From Anaerolineae bacterium (lineage in GTDB: Bacteria; Chloroflexota; Anaerolineae; Aggregatilineales; UBA3940), in the NCBI GenBank assembly GCA_016926255.1, contig JAFGOY010000036.1, positions 1 to 40,308 on the forward strand: 40,308 nucleotides of DNA. The letters run 5' to 3'. The notes beneath the pieces were generated by a model, which was given only the letters and a program-made list of their open reading frames with translations, was not told where the DNA came from and searched no databases. Positions 26,061-37,957 of the stretch are shown here, one piece after another (position 1 is the first letter of the stretch; each line of letters begins with the position of its first letter). The position numbers and the translations under genes are program-made.

Positions 26061-27617
26061 ATGCGTAAACTATCCTATGCACTGATTGGCCTGTTGATCG
26101 TCGTTCTGGTCGTCGGCTGTGCCCCTTCACAAAAAGCCGAAGATATGAAGACGGTGATCATCGGCACCACCGATGAGATATCAAGCCTGGACTACAGTGA
26201 CGCGTACGCAGTCCATGACTGGGAATTGATGCGTAACTGCAACATCGGCTTGACCAACTACAAGCCCGGTACGGCTGAGATCGTAGAAGGCGTCGCCGAC
26301 AGTTGGGACATCAGCGATGATGGCCTGACTTATACATTCCATCTGGCCGACGGCTGGAAATATCCCGATGGCTCCGCTCTCAAAGCGGAAGACTTCGTGA
26401 CCACCGTCAATCGCGCCCTGGCGCTCGAAGGTGATATCCACGGCGTGGTTGCCACCTACGTAGCAAGCGTCGAAGCCCCTGATGACAAGACGGTCGTCTT
26501 CCACCTGGTCAACCCACGTGGCGACTTCCCACAAATCGTCAGTATGGGCCCCTTCATGCCCACGAAGGCCGGCGCTTATCCGGAAGATGAACTCAACCGC
26601 TTCCCGGACAAGCTGGTCGGTGTTGGCGCGTGGCAGATCACCGAATATGACCCGGCAGAGCAGGTCGTGCTTGAGCACAACCCCAACTACAAGCTGGGTT
26701 TTTCCGATACCGCGCCTGATCGCGTCATCGTCCGCTACTTCGAAGATGCCACCGCAATGGCACTCGCTATCGAAAACGGCGAAATCGACGTTGCCTGGCG
26801 TATTCTCGGCCCGCCTGAAGTTCAGCGCCTCGAAGAAGTTGACGGTCTGACCGTTATCAACACTGGCGGTGGTGGAATCCGTTATCTGGTGCCCAACCAC
26901 GCAATGGCCCCGTTCGATGACGTGAACGTACGTAAGGCCCTGGCCGCCCTCGTCGACCGTGATGAGATCGTCGACCGCGTGATGAAGGGTACCGTTGATC
27001 CGCTCTATTCGATGGTTCCTCCAGGGTTCCTGGCTGCCAACGAAGAATTCCTCACTATGTATAACGCGCCGAACATCGAGCTGGCAGAAGAACTGCTGAC
27101 CGCCTCAGGCTACAGTGCGGACGAACCTCTCACCTTCGATCTGTGGTATCCTCCGGAACACTACGGCACGCACGCTGCCCAGATCTTCCAGGTGCTCGAA
27201 GAGCAGTTCGAAGCCACCCCAATGATCCAGGTTACGCTCCAGACTCAGGAGTGGGGCACTTACATCCATGCACTGACCGACGGCGAATACCCGATCGGCT
27301 ATCTGGGCTGGTTCTTCGACTATCCCGACACCAGCAACTACCTGGACCCGTTCGCCGATTCGGTTGCTTCCCCAAGTATGGGTATCAGCTACGCGAACGA
27401 CACGATGGACCAACTGCTGCGGGATGCCGGTGCGAGCACCGATGTCGCCGAGCGTGAACAGCTCTACACCGATGCTCAGATACTTTACGCCGAAGATGTC
27501 GTGACCATCCCGCTCACCATGGAGCCGGAACATGTCGTCCTCATCGACGCGAAAGTGTCCAGTGTCACCATTGGCCCAGCTCTGGTCTTCAACTACGAGC
27601 TGATCGAACTCAAGTAA
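26061..27617 (+). CDS. ABC transporter substrate-binding lipoprotein, family 5 (peptide/nickel type)
   Basis: 518 residues. Signal peptide with lipobox V-V-G-C (Cys20). The body fits SBP_bac_5: MKTVIIGTTDEISSLDYSDA, GVADSWDISDDGLTYTFHLADGWKYPDGSALKAEDF, ALAALVDRDEIVDRVMKGT and YLGWFFDYPDTSNYLDPF. It captures a peptide or another solute outside the cell and delivers it to the permeases encoded next. The ligand cannot be deduced. GAGGAG lies about 11 bases before the ATG. It begins a five-gene operon with two permeases and two ATPases; a cluster of hairpins separates it from the first permease and would allow it to be made in excess. Confidence 0.92.
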   Translation: MRKLSYALIGLLIVVLVVGCAPSQKAEDMKTVIIGTTDEISSLDYSDAYAVHDWELMRNCNIGLTNYKPGTAEIVEGVADSWDISDDGLTYTFHLADGWKYPDGSALKAEDFVTTVNRALALEGDIHGVVATYVASVEAPDDKTVVFHLVNPRGDFPQIVSMGPFMPTKAGAYPEDELNRFPDKLVGVGAWQITEYDPAEQVVLEHNPNYKLGFSDTAPDRVIVRYFEDATAMALAIENGEIDVAWRILGPPEVQRLEEVDGLTVINTGGGGIRYLVPNHAMAPFDDVNVRKALAALVDRDEIVDRVMKGTVDPLYSMVPPGFLAANEEFLTMYNAPNIELAEELLTASGYSADEPLTFDLWYPPEHYGTHAAQIFQVLEEQFEATPMIQVTLQTQEWGTYIHALTDGEYPIGYLGWFFDYPDTSNYLDPFADSVASPSMGISYANDTMDQLLRDAGASTDVAEREQLYTDAQILYAEDVVTIPLTMEPEHVVLIDAKVSSVTIGPALVFNYELIELK

Positions 27618-27635: not shown

Positions 27636-27724
27636 AACCCTGTCGGGCTGATCGATCGCCCGGCAGGGTTACTTAATTCATGTGACCCACAAAGTGGGTC
27701 CACGATGAAGCCCATATCATGGGC
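27636..27724 (+). other. Three consecutive hairpins between SBP and permease genes
   Basis: AACCCTGTCGGGC (27636-27648) / GCCCGGCAGGGTT (27658-27670), then GACCCAC-AAA-GTGGGTC (27684-27700), then GCCCAT-ATC-ATGGGC (27710-27724). None is followed by a convincing T run, so together they look like an mRNA-stabilising or partial-termination element rather than a full stop. Confidence 0.6.
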
Positions 27725-27784
27725 CAAACATATTGTGGTCCGACTATGTTGTCAGCCACACCATTTGACAGGAAAGCATCCGCT

Positions 27785-28888
27785 ATGCACATCTCCCCAT
27801 TAACCGGTATCTGCGCCAGTTCCCTCGGCGTTGCCCTGTTATTGATCGTCTATGCCTTCGTCCGGGGGAGTAAGGGGCTACGCAGTTATATCGTGACCCG
27901 TGTCCTGCTTACGCTGCCGATGGTCTTGATTCTCGTATCCGTCATCTTCTTTGTGATGAGGGTGATCCCCGGCGACCCGGTGACCAGCGAGCTTGGCCCG
28001 CGCGGAACCCCCCAGGCAAAGGAACGTATGCGGGAACAGTTGGGCCTGAACGACCCAATCATGGTGCAGTATGTCAAATACCTGGGGCGCGTCGTTCGCC
28101 TCGACCTGGGTACTTCCCTGGTTCAGGGCAATCGCCCGATTGTCGACGAATTGAGCGAGCGTCTACCGGCCACGCTTGAGCTGGTTGTCCCGGCGATGGT
28201 GGTAGCGGTCGGTTTTGGTGTGCTTTCGGGAACATTTGCCGCCGACAGGCGAAAACGGCCCTCCGATTACGGGCTGAGGCTTTTCAGTATTACCGTCTAC
28301 TCGATGCCGATCTTCTGGCTGGGCCTCATTTTACAAGTCATTTTCGGAGTGGGATTGGGGATCATGCCTGTGGCGGGGCGAATAGATGCCATCGTCAACA
28401 CGACATTGGATCGATACACCAACCTGCTCGTCGTCGACTCGATCATCACCGGGAACTGGGCGGCGCTTGGCAGTTCACTGCATCACCTTGTCCTGCCCGT
28501 GCTAACATTGGGACTGGCTCTGACGGGCGTCTTTGTCCGCATCAGCCGGATCAACGTAATCGAGTCACTGGTGGAAGACTACATACTGGCTGCCCGCGCA
28601 CGCGGCATCCGCGAACGGGTGGTCGTCTACCGCCACGCGCTGCTCAACGCCCTGATCCCGATCGTCACACTGATCGGCTTGCAGTTTTCCGTGCTGCTGG
28701 CCGGGGCTGTGCTGACCGAGACGACCTTTAGCTGGCCCGGAATGGGTCTCTACCTGGTCGAACGGATCGGTCAGCGCGATTACACCGCCGTGCAGGGGGT
28801 GATCACCGTATTTGCGATGTCGGTAGCGATCATCAGCCTGCTGACCGATATCATCTACGCGTTCCTCGACCCACGCGTGCGCTATTAA
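27785..28888 (+). CDS. ABC transporter permease, DppB/OppB type
   Basis: 367 residues. The DppB core starts at about residue 35: YIVTRVLLTLPMVLILVSVIFFVMRVIPGDPVTSELGPRG. The EAA-type cytoplasmic loop is VEDYILAARARGIRERVVVYRHALLNALIPIVT, and the C-terminus (DIIYAFLDPRVRY) is classical. Unusually, an extra hydrophobic segment (about residues 8-27, GICASSLGVALLLIVYAFVRG) precedes the normal first helix. The ATG at 27785 has AGGAAA 9 bases upstream; ATGs at 27719 and 27746 are less likely because they lie in or near the hairpin region. It pairs with the DppC-type gene 33 bases downstream. Confidence 0.88.
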   Translation: MHISPLTGICASSLGVALLLIVYAFVRGSKGLRSYIVTRVLLTLPMVLILVSVIFFVMRVIPGDPVTSELGPRGTPQAKERMREQLGLNDPIMVQYVKYLGRVVRLDLGTSLVQGNRPIVDELSERLPATLELVVPAMVVAVGFGVLSGTFAADRRKRPSDYGLRLFSITVYSMPIFWLGLILQVIFGVGLGIMPVAGRIDAIVNTTLDRYTNLLVVDSIITGNWAALGSSLHHLVLPVLTLGLALTGVFVRISRINVIESLVEDYILAARARGIRERVVVYRHALLNALIPIVTLIGLQFSVLLAGAVLTETTFSWPGMGLYLVERIGQRDYTAVQGVITVFAMSVAIISLLTDIIYAFLDPRVRY

Positions 28889-28921: not shown

Positions 28922-30175
28922 ATGACATCCACCGAACAAATCCCTATCGAAGATATTCCACAATGGCAAAAAGACCTGGATCAGGCCGGTTTCGTCAGAC
29001 GATTCCTGCTTGGCCGCCGCTGGTTTGGAGCTGACTGGTGGTTCGCCGTGATCAGCGGCGTGCTGCTCATATTCGTTTTCAGCATGGCGATCTTCCCCGG
29101 GCTTTATGCTCCCTTCGACCCACGCCAGGAAGTAGGCCCAGGGCAGCTTGCCCCCGGACAGATTCCCCCCACGTTTGTCCTGGTTGGGGAATCGGGCGGC
29201 GCGACCGAACTCGACGACCTGATCGGCGAAGATGTACGGATCGGCATTGTGATCGGGAGCGAGTCGGCCCAGGTTATGCGCGAGGTGGCCGAACAGCGGG
29301 AAGAAGAACTGAAGGCCGAGGGCCAGAATGTCATGCTGCGGCCCCGACCGGAGCGCTATGGGACTATCGAAGAGGCACTGGAAGGGCTGTCGAACGGCGA
29401 AGTTCCCGCCGTGATCGGCCTGAAAGACGAGATCGAACCGCTGCTCGTCAGCTATCCTGACCTGGTCATCGGCGAAGCATTGAGCGGCAACATCCAGAAG
29501 CCGTTTTTACTGGGAACCAACCAGATTGGACAGGACGTGCTCAGCCGGGTGATCTGGGGCACGCGGATCGCGCTGCTGGTCAGTTTTTCGGCAGCGCTGT
29601 TCTCACTCTTTGTCGGCGTCCCCCTGGGACTGATCGCCGGATTCTGGAGCGGCGGGCTTGAACGTGTCCTGACACTGGTCATGGACAGCCTGTATTCGTT
29701 CCCCGGTCTGATCCTGGCGATTGCGATCACCTCGGTGCTTGGGCCAGGGATCATGAACGTCATTGTCGCGATTGCTGTTCTTTACGTCCCAACCTACTAC
29801 CGGATCGTGCGCGGACAGACACTGGCCGTGAAGGAGGAATTATATGTCGAGGCTGCCTGGAGCCTGGGAGCGAGACCGTTCGCAATCCTGACGCGCTATA
29901 TTTTCCCCAACGTCATCCCGTCGATTGTCGTGATTTTCTCGGTCAATGTCGCCGATGCCATCCTTACCGAGGCGGGATTGAGTTTCATCGGCCTGGGTCT
30001 GCCGCCCGACACGCCGGACTGGGGGATTGATCTGGCCTCCGGGCAGAACTATATGCGCCAGGCCTGGTGGCTGATCACCTTCCCTGGCCTGATGGTGATG
30101 TTCGTAACGCTCGGTTTCAGTATGCTGGGCGAGAGCCTGAGCGAAATTCTGAACCCACGATTGACGGAGAACTGA
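28922..30175 (+). CDS. ABC transporter permease, DppC/OppC type, with a large extracytoplasmic insertion
   Basis: 417 residues; usual DppC proteins are about 280-320. The first helix (about 40-60) is followed by the normal LYAPFDPRQ, but the loop to the second helix (LLGTNQIGQDVLSRVIWGTRIALLV, from about 197) contains about 110 extra residues (83-192). That segment reads TELDDLIGEDVRIGIVIGSE, then YGTIEEALEGLSNGEVPAVIGL and YPDLVIGEALS, the pattern of the second lobe of SBP_bac_3 solute-binding proteins. The rest is standard: EAA loop AAWSLGARPFAILTRYIFPNVIPS and ending LSEILNPRL. DppD follows after 5 bases. Confidence 0.88.
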   Translation: MTSTEQIPIEDIPQWQKDLDQAGFVRRFLLGRRWFGADWWFAVISGVLLIFVFSMAIFPGLYAPFDPRQEVGPGQLAPGQIPPTFVLVGESGGATELDDLIGEDVRIGIVIGSESAQVMREVAEQREEELKAEGQNVMLRPRPERYGTIEEALEGLSNGEVPAVIGLKDEIEPLLVSYPDLVIGEALSGNIQKPFLLGTNQIGQDVLSRVIWGTRIALLVSFSAALFSLFVGVPLGLIAGFWSGGLERVLTLVMDSLYSFPGLILAIAITSVLGPGIMNVIVAIAVLYVPTYYRIVRGQTLAVKEELYVEAAWSLGARPFAILTRYIFPNVIPSIVVIFSVNVADAILTEAGLSFIGLGLPPDTPDWGIDLASGQNYMRQAWWLITFPGLMVMFVTLGFSMLGESLSEILNPRLTEN

Positions 30176-30180
30176 CCATC

Positions 30181-31185
30181 ATGGCAAACAACACCTTACT
30201 CAACATCGAAAACCTGTCTGTAGAATACAAGACACGCATGGGATGGGTCAGCGCCGTAGACGACGTCTCGATGGAGATCAGGCAGGGCGAAATCCTGGGA
30301 TTGGTCGGTGAGAGCGGCTGCGGGAAAAGCACCCTGGGTAAAGCCCTCCTGCGAATCAACCCACCCTCAGCCCGGATATCCGGCCATTTGTGGTTTCATG
30401 GCGAAGACCTGATGACCCTCGACGACGAAGCGATGCGTCAAATCCGGGGACAGCGCATCAGCATGATCTTCCAGGACCCGATGACTTCACTCAACCCGAT
30501 CCAGCGAATGGGTGATCACCTGATCGAAACAATCCTGACCCACGAGCCGGAGGTCGGCAAAGAGGAAGCCCGCGAACGGGCGGCGGCACTCGTCGACCGG
30601 CTGGGCATCTCGTCGAACCGGCTGGACGACTACCCACACCAGCTTTCGGGGGGAATGCGCCAGCGGGTAATGATCGGACTGGCGCTGGCGCTCAACGCTG
30701 ACCTGATCGTCGCCGACGAAGCGACCACCTCGCTTGACGTGATCGTCGAGGCGCAGTTCGTCGAACTATTGAAAGAACTGCGGGATGAGTTCAACCTCAC
30801 GATTCTGCTGATCACTCACAATATCGGGCTGGTCGCCGAGATTTCTGACCGGGTGGCGGTGATGTATGCCGGTAGAATGGCCGAACTCTCCGACGCGCGA
30901 AGCGTCTTCAAAGAAACACTGCATCCTTATACTCAGGGATTGTTGAAAGCCGTTCCCAATATCCAGATCGACGACGATGAAGAACTCTACATGATGGGCG
31001 GCTCCCCGCCCGACCTGGTCGAGCCGCCGATGGGCTGCCGCTACCACCCGCGCTGTCCGAAAGTCATGCCGGTCTGCGCAGCAGAACCCTCACATTTTCT
31101 GGAGTCAAAACCCGATCATTTCGTGAACTGCTGGCTGTATGAAGACATCCCGGCGGAGTACGCGGACAAGGAACTTAGCGAATGA
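30181..31185 (+). CDS. ABC transporter ATP-binding protein, DppD/OppD type
   Basis: 334 residues. Walker A GESGCGKST (43-51), Q-loop region FQDPMTSLNP, signature LSGGMRQRV, Walker B LIVADEATTSLDV, H-loop ITHN. The C-terminal oligopeptide/dipeptide domain carries GCRYHPRCPKVMPVC, a cysteine region often associated with an Fe-S site in this family. DEATTSLDV replaces the common DEPTTALDV. The ATG at 30181 was chosen: a longer frame begins inside the upstream permease, but GGAGA precedes this ATG and the protein then starts at the family position. It overlaps the next ATPase by 4 bases. Confidence 0.93.
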   Translation: MANNTLLNIENLSVEYKTRMGWVSAVDDVSMEIRQGEILGLVGESGCGKSTLGKALLRINPPSARISGHLWFHGEDLMTLDDEAMRQIRGQRISMIFQDPMTSLNPIQRMGDHLIETILTHEPEVGKEEARERAAALVDRLGISSNRLDDYPHQLSGGMRQRVMIGLALALNADLIVADEATTSLDVIVEAQFVELLKELRDEFNLTILLITHNIGLVAEISDRVAVMYAGRMAELSDARSVFKETLHPYTQGLLKAVPNIQIDDDEELYMMGGSPPDLVEPPMGCRYHPRCPKVMPVCAAEPSHFLESKPDHFVNCWLYEDIPAEYADKELSE

Positions 31186-32216
31186 GCGATCAGAATCACG
31201 ACGTTTTGGTACAGGTCAAAGGACTGACAAAACACTATCCAATACAACAGGATTTCATCTCACGGTTGCTGTCAGCCGAAGAAGCGAAAAAGGTGCGTGC
31301 GGTCGACGGAGTTGAATTCGACATCCGGCGGGGCGAAGTGTTCGGGCTGGCCGGAGAAAGTGGCAGCGGCAAAACAACCGTCGGACGGCTGGTGCTGCGC
31401 CTGACAGACCCAACAGAGGGCGACATTATTTTCGACGGGGTTAACATCGCTCGGTTATCAAATGAAGATATGCGCCAGATGCGCGCCCGTATGCAGATCA
31501 TCTTCCAGGATCCGTTTGCCTCGCTGAACCCGCGCATGCGGATCGGTGACGGGATCGGGCATGGTGTAAAAATCCACTCCGACGCCACCGCCACCGAACG
31601 AAGGACGGTTGTCGAAACGATGATGGAATATGTCGGGCTGACCCCCGCCAAACTTTACTACGAGAAATACCCACACCAGTTGTCGGGCGGACAGCGCCAG
31701 CGAGCGGTCATCGCCCGCGCGCTCGTCACCCGGCCAGAGCTGGTCGTCGCTGACGAGCCGATTGCGATGGCCGATGTCTCGGTGCGCGCCCTGCTGCTCG
31801 AATTGATGATCAGGCTGAAGGAAGATTTCAATCTGACCTACCTGTTCATCACCCATGACCTGGCAACCGCCAAGTACATCTGTGACCGGATCGGCATCAT
31901 GTACCTGGGCAAGCTCGTCGAAGTGGGCGATCTCCGGGATGTCTATACCCATCCCAGCCACCCTTATACCGACGCGCTGCTGGAAGCCGTCCCGGTGCCC
32001 GACCCCGAATCCAGGCACGAGAAGCCGCTGCCAAAGGGTGAAATCCCTAACCCAATCGATCCCCCTTCGGGCTGCCGGTTCCACCCTCGCTGCCCGTTGG
32101 CAGTGGATGTCTGCTCGGAGATCGAACCCGAATTACGCCCGGTAGAGGGCAGCACAGGTCACCTGGCCGCCTGCCATCTGACCACCGGGGATTACCGGCA
32201 TCTGGCACCTAAATAA
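31182..32216 (+). CDS. ABC transporter ATP-binding protein, DppF/OppF type
   Basis: 344 residues. Walker A GESGSGKTT (58-66), Q-loop FQDPFASLNP, signature LSGGQRQRA, Walker B LVVADEPIAMADVSVRA, H-loop ITHDLATAKYICDR. The C-terminal domain has GCRFHPRCPLAVDVC. The D-loop reads AMADVS rather than SALDVS; related transporters of archaea and Thermotoga-like bacteria show M-x-D forms, so activity is probably kept. It forms a heterodimer with the preceding DppD-type ATPase. It is the last gene of the operon and is closed by the terminator at 32239. Confidence 0.92.
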   Translation: MSDQNHDVLVQVKGLTKHYPIQQDFISRLLSAEEAKKVRAVDGVEFDIRRGEVFGLAGESGSGKTTVGRLVLRLTDPTEGDIIFDGVNIARLSNEDMRQMRARMQIIFQDPFASLNPRMRIGDGIGHGVKIHSDATATERRTVVETMMEYVGLTPAKLYYEKYPHQLSGGQRQRAVIARALVTRPELVVADEPIAMADVSVRALLLELMIRLKEDFNLTYLFITHDLATAKYICDRIGIMYLGKLVEVGDLRDVYTHPSHPYTDALLEAVPVPDPESRHEKPLPKGEIPNPIDPPSGCRFHPRCPLAVDVCSEIEPELRPVEGSTGHLAACHLTTGDYRHLAPK

Positions 32217-32296: not shown

Positions 32297-35200
32297 CTAT
32301 ATGGTGATCTTGCGCCGACGGCCTTTCATCAGCCGATAGGCGAGGTAGACCAGCAGCCCGACTCCGGCGACCCAATACCATCTGGATAGGAAGTTAAGGG
32401 CCTTGCCGCCTGTGCCGGGTAGTTCTTCGGGGTAGATTTCAACCGAACCTTCAATCTCTGCGCTGCCGAGATCGGTAAGCAGTTCGGCGATGTTCCAGGC
32501 GGTTCCTGGAGGGCCGGAAATCACACGGGTGACAATTGAGATTGTCACCGTTTCGCCAGGGTTCATCAGGCCGATAGTGGCGGTCACCGTTTGGCCGCTG
32601 ATATTCACCGTCCCCTTACTGCTAGAGGCGCTTTCAACCGAAAACTGCGGATCGACCGTATCGCTGATAACTGCATGGGGATAAGGCACACTGGAGGGAT
32701 TCCTTACGGTAATCACCCAGGTGATTGTTTCCCCAATGGCTGCAAACGCCGGGTCGCCCAGTTTGACTATACCGGGGTCAAACACAAAGAGAGAAGGCGG
32801 GATGGCAGACGCAGGGGCACTGGCTCCGATCCTTCCACCACCGCCCTTTTTGAGGATCGTTAACGTATCCGTGTTATAAAGCGTCGAGACGCCCGTTTCA
32901 GTTGACGTCAGGTATGCAGGCGTGTTGTTATAGACACCCTCGACATCACCGGTGACAACAACGTCAAACTCGCAGACATGGCCGCCAGTCGCGGTCGCCG
33001 GCACCGGGGCCGGGTCTAAAGTTCCCCCGGTGAGATGAATTTCATCGGTGCCAGGGACAGCCACCAGTGCGCCGCCGCAGACAGGATCGACCGGGCCGCT
33101 GACAATTGTCAGACCGGCAGGCAGGATATCGATGAACTCAATACCGGTCAGGCCACCCGGATAGGTGGCGGCTGAATTCGGGTTAACCATTGTGAAAGTC
33201 AGAGTCGTCGACTCATATCTGTAGATTTGATCGGGATCAAACTCCTTCACCACCGCCAGGGTGTCTGCCACGATCAACGCGGCATTGGCCGTCAGCCCGG
33301 GGCCAGTTTCGGTCGAATTGACATTGCTGGTCACATTGTCATACACACCGATCACTGCCCCCAGAATGTCAACTGTAAGCTGGCATTCACGAGGAGTGTC
33401 ATCAGGTTCGGCATCATCAATCGACAATCCCGCAACAATGATATCCCTGGTGCCGGGGATCGCCGTTATAACAGCGGTTCCACCGCCGCAGTCCCCGCTG
33501 GCCGTGATGTTAGCCGGGTTGTTGATTTCAAGCCCAACCGGGAGTTGGTCGGTAAAGGTGATGTTGGTCAGGTCGGTTTCCGGGTTTGGATTGGTCAGCG
33601 TGAAGGTCAGTGTAGAGACATCACCCTGCGAGATGACCGTCGGAGCAAAGTCCTTGTCGATGGTCAAATCGATCCCGGTCATCGCAACAGTGTCCCAGTC
33701 ATCGTTGCCGCTGTCGGTGCTGTCATCCCCAAGTTCAGTCCGATCATCGTAGACACGCTCATCAGCAGTCGTACCGGGCTGCGTCGACCAGTCCACGTCG
33801 GCGTAGTTGTCCAGCACCGCACCCAGTGGCATCGACTGGAGAACCTCTCCCCGGAAGACAATCGGCCCGGCGTTGTCGCCAGCCGCTACACTGGCGATGT
33901 TGAAAGTCACCGTTTGCCCACCGGCAGTGACATCCCCGGTCACGGTAGGGGTAATCGAGACTTCACCAACGTCCTGAGTTCCGTTGCCATTATCATCGAT
34001 GAAGGCCGAGCCGGTGACATACTGGATATGCTCCGGCAGCGCATCTTCGATCACAACCTCGTAGGCTTCAGATTCGCCGTTGTTGGTCGAACCGATGCTG
34101 TAGAGAACGAAATCGCCACGTCGCGGTCGCTGAACCGTTCTAAGGGTCACACCATCCGACTCATAGATCGCCGGGATTGCCTTGGTCGTCACGAAATACG
34201 GCTGGTCGATATCCACACTGGCACTGCCCAGATCAAAGGAGGCGTCGGCCCCCGTTTCATCAATGAATTGGAAAGTCGCCGTGTCGTTGCTGGTCATGTC
34301 GGTCTGGGTTGGCGGCAACCAATAGTAGCCACTATCGAAGATATCCTGATTGGTAACCATCACTTCGACGGAGACGGTAAACCCGCAGGCGGCACCACCA
34401 GTGTCGTTATCAATCGGGCCTGGGAACGTCCAGATGATCTCCGTGCCGGTGTCCGGGCTGGGGTTGAACGGATTGATTGTATGCCCCGTCCAGAAAGCTG
34501 AAGTCGAACTGAGATCGGTTCCGCTGCAATTAGTCGAGGAGACCAGTTGATCCGACCCAGGAACAGGGTATACGCCATTTTCATTATTGTAGAAGTCCCT
34601 GACAGACACTGTTCCTGTGGTGGGGTCTTCATAAGCGGTCGTATATGGCGGTATCACCACAGTAAATTCGACCTCGTAGGTGCTGCCAACAGACACCGTG
34701 CCGGGGGTTGCCGACTTTCCACCACTTGAGGCGATGCGGGCAGTGGCCTCATTGCTGAAGCCCTCCAGCGGCTGGTCAGATGGAGAAGTATGATCAGGGC
34801 CGCCCTCTTCGCCTGCATAGTTAAACAGCGTCGACTCGTTAGTGATCAACGTGTTTGGAGCAACCCCGGGCTTGATATGCAGATCATAGGTGATAATGAT
34901 CAGGTTTTTACCGGGGCCAACTGAATGGGCCTGGCAGGCACCCGTCGCATCATCGACGATTTCGATGCCGTTGCCGAAGATATCGTCCGCCGTGTTGTCT
35001 ATACCATCCGGGCCACCGCCCAGACCATACCAGTGCAGCGGCGACAACCCATCCGTCGTGTCGGGGTCGTGCGGGATGTTGGTCGTATCGCCGTAGGATA
35101 CCTGTAGGTTTAACTCATTATCAAAACGGGTTGGATTGCCGGGAGGAGCACTGGCCGGATCGGGGATTTCATACTGGGCAGTTTGCAACTCGTCCCTGAT

Positions 35201-37957
35201 CCGCAGGTCGAATGCGCCGTTAACGCTGGTGCCGGAGTTATGGATCATGATCGCAAAGGTGACCATATCGTCGCCTTCTACCTGGGTAATGTTAGCGTCG
35301 ATATATGGCACACTGTTGGAGTTATTGAATACCCCCCCGCTCCAGGAAGGTGGGGTTCCATCGGTGCCGGAAGGCGAGAAAGTGACCGTGCTGCCATCCT
35401 GGGCTAATGCCGGGGGGTCCGGATTGTAAGTAGGGGCGCTGGTCGCGGATTCGGACTGGAAGGCAACCACACCCTTTGTCGATACAAGCACCGGTTGAGT
35501 CAGGATCACCCAGGCTATGGCCTCGCTGCTCTCCGTCACCGCCAGCGTATTATTGTCCGACTGCTGTACCATGTTCGAGAGGTACAGTTCATCGGCAAAA
35601 GGCTCGTTGGATGCCTGAATGGTGAACAGCAGTTCAATCAGTGCTCCCTGGTTCGGGTCTTCCTCGTGATCGCCAAATTCCCATTGAATCAGGTTTTCGG
35701 GTTCACTGGTGGTAACGGCAGGAGTAGATGCACCGCTCAAAACCGTGTGATATTCGTCATTCGACCCCCAGGCCCACTGGCCTACCGGTGGAATTGTCCC
35801 ATCAGCGGCCTGCGTCCAGGTATGTCCTCCGGTGCCATCGGCGTCCGGGTCTTCAGCAAAGAAGATCGGCAGAGGAAGATACTCGGTGAGCTTGAGGTCT
35901 TCGAAGTCGCCAAACAGCAGTTCGTACCGGATGCGATAGGTGATCGTATCACCCGGCGTGATTCCGAACGCCGCACCGGGGGGAACAGTTGTACCAAGCG
36001 CTGTACCATTGTGGGCATAGATAACCTTGCTTGGTTCGTTGCCGGGTACGGTAGCGGTCTCACCGCTGTCGTCATCCTCACTTTCACCGGTCGTGCCGGT
36101 GCACGGTGCTGGGGTGCAGGTAGCGGTATCGAGCAAATTACCTGCAATCGCTACAGTATTTGATACTTCGTCACCCTGGTTGACGTTCTCATCGCCGGGA
36201 TACAGGCTGGGAACATCAAATTCCTGCTGAATGACGGTTCGGAAAACGACCCGGCCAGTGGTTGCGCCGTCGTTTGCCCCGCCGCCGTCAGCAACCAGGC
36301 CGCCTAACAACTGTGCGGAACGACTGTGAGCACCGCCAGCATCTTCGAGCTGATCCGAGACATTGAAAATCAGTTCGATGCGGCCCTGAGCATCGCGCGT
36401 GCCGTTGTCGTATGAGAAATGGGCAGGCAAGAAATCACCGGAAATGGTCGCCCCATTTTCGGTGACAGAAAGCGTCGGCGTAAAACCGGTATCGACAATG
36501 TGTCCGTCGGAGACGTAATCGGTCAGGACGATATCTTCGAAAGCAAAGTAGTCGGATACCTGGAAGTCGATAGTCCATTCGAGGGTTGCATCCGGAACCG
36601 GATCACCCCCGCCGACTACCGAAACCGATTTCTGGGTAGCGATTGACTTGTCTTCTACCTCACAGGGAGGCACACAGACCCCGTTCTGGGTGAAAGTGTC
36701 CGGATCGTCGTCCGGGTCAGTTGGTGTCCAATCAAACTCGCCTTCGATGTCGTTGGAAGTCAGCGAGTTGGTAGCTGCACTCGCATCATCGCCGGAAGTC
36801 GGGTCGATGATGTCGTCGCCATCGGCGTTTTGATCGGGCACATAGAACACGATCTCAAAAGTGATATCTTCACTGCCCGAACCACCTTCGATATCATCCC
36901 CCCAACTGATCGTGATTTCGTTGTCGGGCGCATTAGCCGGGCCAAAGGGGAAGCCGCCGCCACCTGATACACTTACGGTTGGCGCGCCAGCCGGGGGTGT
37001 GGCTGCATCGGGATAGGCAAAACTCCCGACGGAGGTCACGACAATGTTGTTATCTATTGCATCGACGATTGTCAGGGATTCGGCAACCTGCCCCTCGGCG
37101 ATATCGACCGTCACCGTCCAGATACGTTCGAAGTTGGGGCCGGTGGCGGTTTCAATGCCTTCCAAACCATCATGGTCTTTTTCGATATCGACCACAGCCG
37201 GGGAAACCGGGCTGCCATCCCATGTCGTAGCGTCGAAATCGGGTTCGCTGTAGGTAGTGATATCACCGCAGCACCAGTCATTGAGTGGGGTGTTGCCATA
37301 GCGGAACCCACCACGGGTGCGAATGACCAAGTCTTCGCCAAGATTAGCAAAATCGCTCAGGCTGGCTTTGACCGTCACTTCAAGGTCAGGCTGGGTAGGA
37401 GTGAAACTACCAAAGGGCAGTTCGATCACCACCAGTTTGTCGCCTTCTTCACCTTCTACATCAGCATGGTAACCACTGCTGTCAAATGCGTAGGGATGGC
37501 TGACCACACCCGAAGCGGGAAAAGTCAGAACGGTAACATTCAGCTCCTGGCCCAGGTACGTGGCGATCGGGGCGGAACCGACATCGATCCCATCGCCATC
37601 GCCATCGCCACCGGCAGTAGGCAGATAAACATCAATGAACGGGCCATAACCCGGATCGGAGCCAGCATTAGTGAAAGTTACCGTGAAGGTAAAATCGGCA
37701 CCAAGCATCACCGTATCAGGGACATCCAGCGATACCTCGGCCACGCCATCATACAAAGGCCGAACGATACTTTCTTCGGGGATCAGTGAAGCCGGGACAG
37801 AGTCAGCCGTTAACGCAGCCTCCACCATAGCATCAACATCCCCGGCGGCGGCTGTGACAATTGCCGGACTCCCCATTAGCATGACAAACAAAAACACGAT
37901 AGCTTGAGCCAATCGTGATACCCGAACAGGCACTCTTATCCTTGATTTGCCGATCAT
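32297..37957 (-). CDS. Giant repeat-built surface protein with LPGTG sorting signal
   Basis: 1886 residues. A signal peptide is at about 15-38 (hydrophobic core AIVFLFVMLMG). The body is roughly nine tandem immunoglobulin-like/DUF11-type units beginning near residues 65, 256, 439, 643, 823, 1083, 1256, 1435, 1571 and 1709. Typical phrases are TWVITVRNPSSVPYPHAVIS and TLTFTLTNPNPETDLTNITF. DGDGDGID near the N-terminus and DDNGNGTQDVGE near 1290 look like calcium sites. The C-terminus is a sortase-type signal: LPGTG at 1846-1850, a hydrophobic helix and a basic tail KGRRRK. It is predicted to be an extracellular adhesin or stalk covalently or membrane anchored. AGGAAAAG precedes the ATG. No sortase is in the window. 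Confidence 0.88.
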   Translation of the reverse strand: MIGKSRIRVPVRVSRLAQAIVFLFVMLMGSPAIVTAAAGDVDAMVEAALTADSVPASLIPEESIVRPLYDGVAEVSLDVPDTVMLGADFTFTVTFTNAGSDPGYGPFIDVYLPTAGGDGDGDGIDVGSAPIATYLGQELNVTVLTFPASGVVSHPYAFDSSGYHADVEGEEGDKLVVIELPFGSFTPTQPDLEVTVKASLSDFANLGEDLVIRTRGGFRYGNTPLNDWCCGDITTYSEPDFDATTWDGSPVSPAVVDIEKDHDGLEGIETATGPNFERIWTVTVDIAEGQVAESLTIVDAIDNNIVVTSVGSFAYPDAATPPAGAPTVSVSGGGGFPFGPANAPDNEITISWGDDIEGGSGSEDITFEIVFYVPDQNADGDDIIDPTSGDDASAATNSLTSNDIEGEFDWTPTDPDDDPDTFTQNGVCVPPCEVEDKSIATQKSVSVVGGGDPVPDATLEWTIDFQVSDYFAFEDIVLTDYVSDGHIVDTGFTPTLSVTENGATISGDFLPAHFSYDNGTRDAQGRIELIFNVSDQLEDAGGAHSRSAQLLGGLVADGGGANDGATTGRVVFRTVIQQEFDVPSLYPGDENVNQGDEVSNTVAIAGNLLDTATCTPAPCTGTTGESEDDDSGETATVPGNEPSKVIYAHNGTALGTTVPPGAAFGITPGDTITYRIRYELLFGDFEDLKLTEYLPLPIFFAEDPDADGTGGHTWTQAADGTIPPVGQWAWGSNDEYHTVLSGASTPAVTTSEPENLIQWEFGDHEEDPNQGALIELLFTIQASNEPFADELYLSNMVQQSDNNTLAVTESSEAIAWVILTQPVLVSTKGVVAFQSESATSAPTYNPDPPALAQDGSTVTFSPSGTDGTPPSWSGGVFNNSNSVPYIDANITQVEGDDMVTFAIMIHNSGTSVNGAFDLRIRDELQTAQYEIPDPASAPPGNPTRFDNELNLQVSYGDTTNIPHDPDTTDGLSPLHWYGLGGGPDGIDNTADDIFGNGIEIVDDATGACQAHSVGPGKNLIIITYDLHIKPGVAPNTLITNESTLFNYAGEEGGPDHTSPSDQPLEGFSNEATARIASSGGKSATPGTVSVGSTYEVEFTVVIPPYTTAYEDPTTGTVSVRDFYNNENGVYPVPGSDQLVSSTNCSGTDLSSTSAFWTGHTINPFNPSPDTGTEIIWTFPGPIDNDTGGAACGFTVSVEVMVTNQDIFDSGYYWLPPTQTDMTSNDTATFQFIDETGADASFDLGSASVDIDQPYFVTTKAIPAIYESDGVTLRTVQRPRRGDFVLYSIGSTNNGESEAYEVVIEDALPEHIQYVTGSAFIDDNGNGTQDVGEVSITPTVTGDVTAGGQTVTFNIASVAAGDNAGPIVFRGEVLQSMPLGAVLDNYADVDWSTQPGTTADERVYDDRTELGDDSTDSGNDDWDTVAMTGIDLTIDKDFAPTVISQGDVSTLTFTLTNPNPETDLTNITFTDQLPVGLEINNPANITASGDCGGGTAVITAIPGTRDIIVAGLSIDDAEPDDTPRECQLTVDILGAVIGVYDNVTSNVNSTETGPGLTANAALIVADTLAVVKEFDPDQIYRYESTTLTFTMVNPNSAATYPGGLTGIEFIDILPAGLTIVSGPVDPVCGGALVAVPGTDEIHLTGGTLDPAPVPATATGGHVCEFDVVVTGDVEGVYNNTPAYLTSTETGVSTLYNTDTLTILKKGGGGRIGASAPASAIPPSLFVFDPGIVKLGDPAFAAIGETITWVITVRNPSSVPYPHAVISDTVDPQFSVESASSSKGTVNISGQTVTATIGLMNPGETVTISIVTRVISGPPGTAWNIAELLTDLGSAEIEGSVEIYPEELPGTGGKALNFLSRWYWVAGVGLLVYLAYRLMKGRRRKITI

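Follow-up and report, generated by a model that had tools for sequence, protein, structure and literature searches.

A DppC-type ABC permease of Anaerolineae with a single solute-binding protein lobe in its first external loop

The window analysed here is a 40,308-nucleotide stretch of DNA from an Anaerolineae bacterium (contig JAFGOY010000036.1), and its forward strand carries an operon for an ABC importer of the Dpp type. A family-5 solute-binding lipoprotein (SBP_bac_5; 26061–27617; PF00496, E 1.2e-82), which is the operon's complete, separate receptor, is followed by a DppB-type partner permease (27719–28888, assigned from the ORF list and NCBIfam, with a true start that may be further in), a DppC-type ABC permease (28922–30175), a DppD-type ATPase (30181–31185, with its start placed at the ATG at 30181 and the listed ORF running from 30067) and a DppF-type ATPase (31182–32216). 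In the window, as in loci L011, L015, L041 and L007, DppB carries at its N-terminus a further hydrophobic stretch resembling an additional membrane helix. On the reverse strand, at 32297–37957, is a secreted repeat protein of 1886 residues with a C-terminal LPGTGG-like motif and a membrane anchor; its repeats are probably DUF11-like.

The ORF at 28922–30175 encodes 417 residues, and a first-pass annotation of the window had described it as a permease with an extra domain, which our analyses bear out. The permease core is recognised by the NCBIfam model Opp2C (E 5e-68, residues 191–410, below the equivalog cut-off and hence assigning no substrate class), by PF00528 (BPD_transp_1) in a Pfam scan (E 4e-25), and by alignment to Escherichia coli DppC (8z1v_B; E 3.5e-46), in which residues 194–415 correspond to DppC 78–299. 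The first transmembrane helix (TM1; residues 37–57, 29030–29092) is a helix in the predicted model and lies in the OppC_N region, with an OppC_N match at residues 41–69 (E 0.0028) that is below the Pfam cut-off. Residues 42–78 align to DppC 32–68, albeit in a weak stretch of 4.9 bits, and the conserved core resumes with LLGTNQIGQDVLSR at residues 196–209 (29507–29548), as seen in the translation and in the E. coli DppC alignment. About 107 extra residues therefore lie between DppC residues 68 and 78, in the external (periplasmic) loop that joins TM1 to TM2. An AlphaFold2 model of the permease (mean pLDDT 83) superposes on solved DppC over 280 of 282 DppC residues (Z 30.5, rmsd 2.7), leaving a compact extra domain unaligned. 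The domain and core sequence, the fold of solved DppC, and an operon that includes a family-5 SBP, a second permease and two ATPases all place the protein in the DppC/OppC type.

The first-pass annotation had set the limits of the insertion at residues 83–192, which is off by no more than a few residues; as delimited by profiles, hhalign and the predicted fold, the lobe spans residues 84–190 (29171–29491). It had also stated that the loop of DppC proteins is normally short, and in cousins lacking the insert there are indeed 27–29 residues between the same anchors, compared to 140 in the window. The insertion is genuine: at least 40 related loci share it, and closely related pairs differ much less at non-synonymous than at synonymous positions.

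In the predicted model the insert has a beta-alpha-beta architecture with five strands (E85–90, E106–110, E142–146, E163–167 and E181–186). Direct scans with the insert of the window permease alone gave no Pfam or NCBIfam match, so the bridge to a known family is provided by cousins with a shorter lobe. A profile of the short lobes searched against the PDB finds solved family-3 SBPs, the best being AncQR (4zv1; E 2e-18), and the match is always to lobe 2; the profile of the long lobes, to which the window belongs, likewise finds family-3 SBPs, with a best E of 8e-4. Alignment to lobe 2 by hhalign gives 99.4% for the short form and 97.4% for the long form, whereas alignment to lobe 1, the negative control, gives about 1%; the long and short forms align to each other at 96.8%. 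A Chloroflexota SBP_bac_3 HMM matches the eight short DppC lobes at HMM positions 85–180 only, with up to 60 bits, and the NCBIfam model for lysine/arginine/ornithine (LAO-type) SBPs matches seven of the eight. Weak Pfam matches in single members included Phosphonate-bd and NMT1, which are related type II SBPs, and ABC2_membrane_3 and UriR, which we judged to be chance.

The predicted structure of the long lobe (pLDDT 80.5) has as its best fold matches lobe 2 of family-3-type SBPs (Z 13.8, rmsd 2.0, 93 residues). It also superposes on 6gpm, the crystal structure of the isolated domain 2 of TmArgBP, with Z 11.9 over 89 of 92 residues. In TmArgBP the chain forms lobe II without interruption between the two hinge strands (PMC4022495); the insert matches this stretch, hinge to hinge. 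It is not a whole SBP_bac_3 protein with two lobes and two hinge strands, as lobe 1 is absent in both its halves. The insert has the sequence profile and the five-stranded alpha/beta lobe of SBP_bac_3 (type II, cluster F) lobe 2, the sequence of the window form being recognised via profiles only. That another alpha/beta domain has converged on the lobe 2 pattern would fit the lack of any Pfam or NCBIfam match to the window sequence alone, but the profile, profile–profile, HMM and fold evidence all points to lobe 2, lobe 1 being the negative control, and convergence is very improbable. The first-pass annotation's assignment to SBP_bac_3 lobe 2 is thus upheld, and the evidence strongly supports the conclusion that the window ORF is a DppC-type permease carrying a complete family-3 lobe 2 in its TM1–TM2 loop.

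A search with PF00497, the check that the first-pass annotation had proposed, gave no match to the insert, and a genuine lobe 2 taken alone is also unmatched. PF00497.25 covers lobe 1 only; when a complete SBP is aligned to it, 219 residues span 131 model positions, with lobe 2 falling within an insertion. A PF00497 search therefore cannot decide the identity of a lobe 2, and an isolated family-3 lobe 2 is invisible to it, so that automatic annotation misses the lobe in DppC.

We scanned genomes, using one genome per species, and extracted the TM1–TM2 loop from each of the 80 loci obtained. At least 40 Chloroflexota-type loci have the lobe in this loop of DppC, the operon again being of the SBP-B-C-D-F kind. 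The long insert, as in the window, is present in Anaerolineaceae, in other Anaerolineae and in a few metagenome-assembled genomes (MAGs) titled otherwise, which are possibly mis-binned, and the shorter insert is present in eight Anaerolineae-type loci. Cousins with no insert come from Chloroflexota, spirochaetes, Desulfobacteraceae and others. In surveys that scored a limited number of candidates per genome, and so give lower bounds, at least about 18 of the 396 genomes from the class match the long-lobe profile substantially, and at least one of the 400 genomes from the phylum matches the short form over its full length. None of the viral contigs searched carries the domain. Cultured organisms with the system are Anaerolinea thermolimosa, Ornatilinea apprima and Pelolinea submarina. 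Two archaeal MAGs have a different insert, unrelated to the lobe, in the same loop of DppC (L072:1827-3212 and L073:2868-4304); it is about 150 residues long and apparently beta-rich, and the TM1–TM2 loop thus seems to accept domains repeatedly.

The system resembles E. coli DppBCDF (8z1v; PMC12136057) in its core fold, sequence and operon with a family-5 SBP, although E. coli DppC has a short TM1–TM2 loop. In the E. coli transporter a scoop of DppB enters the cleft of DppA, and the TM1–TM2 regions of DppB and DppC differ (PMC12136057); the scoop that enters the SBP is a feature of DppB, whereas the extra domain of the window is on DppC. GlnPQ and OpuA (PMC8025302, PMC11065425) likewise have SBP-derived domains (SBDs) covalently joined to the permease, and those of GlnPQ are of family-3 type. 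These SBDs are two-lobed and ligand-binding, however, and in GlnP they are joined at the terminus, whereas the window permease has one lobe within a loop, lacks the ligand contacts, and is encoded together with a separate full SBP; there is no complete ligand-binding SBD in its chain. TmArgBP domain 2 (6gpm) has the same fold and extent as the window lobe and demonstrates that a lobe 2 can fold by itself, although 6gpm is an engineered fragment and the window lobe is a natural domain of a permease. We found no description of a single SBP lobe inside a permease loop in the literature searched, which mostly excluded subscription papers. Known permease–SBP fusions are two-lobed receptors, whereas here a single lobe is kept in a loop.

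In close pairs the lobe has a dN/dS of about 0.08–0.16 where dS is usable, and its dN is 1.3 to more than 10 times the core value; on average the lobe is 40% identical and the core 78%. Judged from these substitution patterns, the lobe is under purifying selection and evolves faster than the permease core. Asp183 of TmArgBP binds the amino group of the ligand (PMC4022495). This aspartate is kept in 36 of 37 SBPs and in six of the eight short lobes, but in none of the 38 long lobes, including that of the window. The second Thr of the GTT motif behaves similarly, being kept in 32/37 SBPs, 5/8 short lobes and 1/38 long lobes. The long lobes have instead an invariant R before Y/F (38/38) and a longer helix after strand 2; the predicted model and the lobe alignment place a long-form-specific helix and loop at residues 115–148 (29264–29365), ending in a conserved PRxxRY. 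Since all 38 long lobes have lost the ligand aspartate, the long lobe is probably not a receptor, although its retention in most of the short lobes means that the original function of the lobe may have been different. The stepwise loss of ligand contacts from the short to the long forms provides a natural series in which half of a receptor becomes a structural part.

Core trees were built without the insert. In these the long form is a single clade (support 100/99 and 100/100), while short-lobed and lobe-less cousins interleave. Forcing all of the lobe-bearing cores together costs 16 log units, and the AU test marginally rejects it (p-AU 0.0465). In a tree retaining the lobe-1 columns the short lobes group together, separately from SBPs (91/94). 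A single origin of the short and long lobes is not rejected (p-AU 0.368) in a lobe-2-only tree, whose columns are too few to place the donor. From these patterns we infer one ancient acquisition of the lobe, with a few later losses in cousins. Some cousin operons have a full SBP_bac_3 domain fused before SBP_bac_5, an unusual double receptor of about 780–805 residues (L048:513-2903, L051:483-2897, L058:2-2365 and L063:50-2398). As candidate donors, these fused domains fall outside the DppC lobes in the tree that retains the lobe-1 columns, of which only the grouping of the short lobes is used.

Two general features of the operons bear on the role of the lobe. A complete family-5 SBP is present in lobe-bearing operons wherever the contig extends far enough, so the lobe is no substitute for the receptor. 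Close cousins have an unchanged operon but no lobe, which makes it dispensable for transport of that type. Work cited in PMC3328499 concerns MalF P2, a sizeable folded domain that contacts the SBP from an external loop of its permease. In cluster F proteins, lobe II itself bears a patch for recognition of the transporter, by analogy with ArtJ (PMC4022495). The position of the lobe, its constraint without ligand residues, and the precedents of MalF P2 and of the DppB scoop in E. coli are the basis for our reading, by analogy, that the lobe may be an accessory extracellular domain, akin to MalF P2, for docking or retention of the separate family-5 SBP; we put the probability of this at about 0.5. 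The lobe would be fixed on the outer rim of DppC as a rigid body at the DppC side of the entrance, where it would be positioned to touch a docked SBP. It could then contact the family-5 SBP beside that protein's docking site, and this contact would prolong the lifetime of the SBP–translocator complex or alter gating, much as MalF P2 touches MalE. MalF P2 is not itself an SBP lobe and is located in another loop. The much faster evolution of the lobe relative to the core could also mean that it is a loosely constrained tether. A bolder proposal, which we put forward only tentatively, is that a natural half of an SBP was co-opted by an importer family unrelated to its own and now serves permanently as a pseudo-receptor that binds no ligand. 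It would dock next to the real family-5 SBP, or take its place, and gate it. If true, this would reveal a new way for ABC importers to control the exchange of SBPs.

We favour docking or retention over three other explanations, which we rank in the order lid, neutral insertion and ligand sensor. A lid or plug would rest over the extracellular mouth in the absence of a docked SBP, blocking leak or futile use of ATP until displaced by the SBP. The loop that carries the lobe adjoins the entrance, and with the TMD-docking patch known from lobe 2 of cluster F SBPs (PMC4022495) the lobe could dock on the permease's own face; the recognition residue of ArtJ and TmArgBP is, however, not conserved in the DppC lobes on inspection of the alignment, and we consider a lid unlikely. 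It is less probable again that the insertion was fortuitous and nearly neutral, and has been kept since it folds and is harmless. The low identity of the lobe compared to the core, the several cousins that lack it, and the presence of other domains in the same loops elsewhere are all consistent with this, but dN well below dS argues against it, as do the preservation of fold-forming and RY positions across a deep clade and the presence of the lobe in 44/44 long-form sequences of the clade in the tree, although these loci were partly found via the insert.

The least probable of the three, and one that the first-pass annotation had raised beside docking of the family-5 SBP and gating of transport, is that the lobe is a ligand sensor or auxiliary receptor. 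It would bind an amino acid or the end of a peptide, either by itself or by closing on the family-5 SBP, and thereby adjust transport. The short lobes that keep the ligand aspartate and second Thr point in this direction, and the SBP_bac_3–SBP_bac_5 fusions suggest that amino-acid recognition is part of this transporter's surroundings. Sensing is nevertheless disfavoured for the window, whose clade lacks the Asp throughout and the second Thr in 37/38 lobes; lobe 1 is also absent, and known family-3 binding uses both lobes, as the TmArgBP contacts indicate (PMC4022495). The system offers a direct means of dissecting, in cultured organisms, how a single SBP lobe contributes to docking and gating when it binds no ligand.

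Several of the loci have further unusual features. In L053:13-1512, L060:2061-3431, L066, L063 and L052:1421-3847, the scoop region of DppB (its first external loop) is enlarged by a sizeable insert; that of L053 matches SH3_3 (E 1.8e-6), and the L052 chain is about 808 residues long. A second, divergent DppB/DppC pair directly follows the first operon in L063 (6965-8862). In the window's own genome, an amino-acid permease lies beside an SBP_bac_3 gene (L091; contig C30, about position 54431), and in its 354-residue frame about 70 residues appear to have been added behind the first helix.
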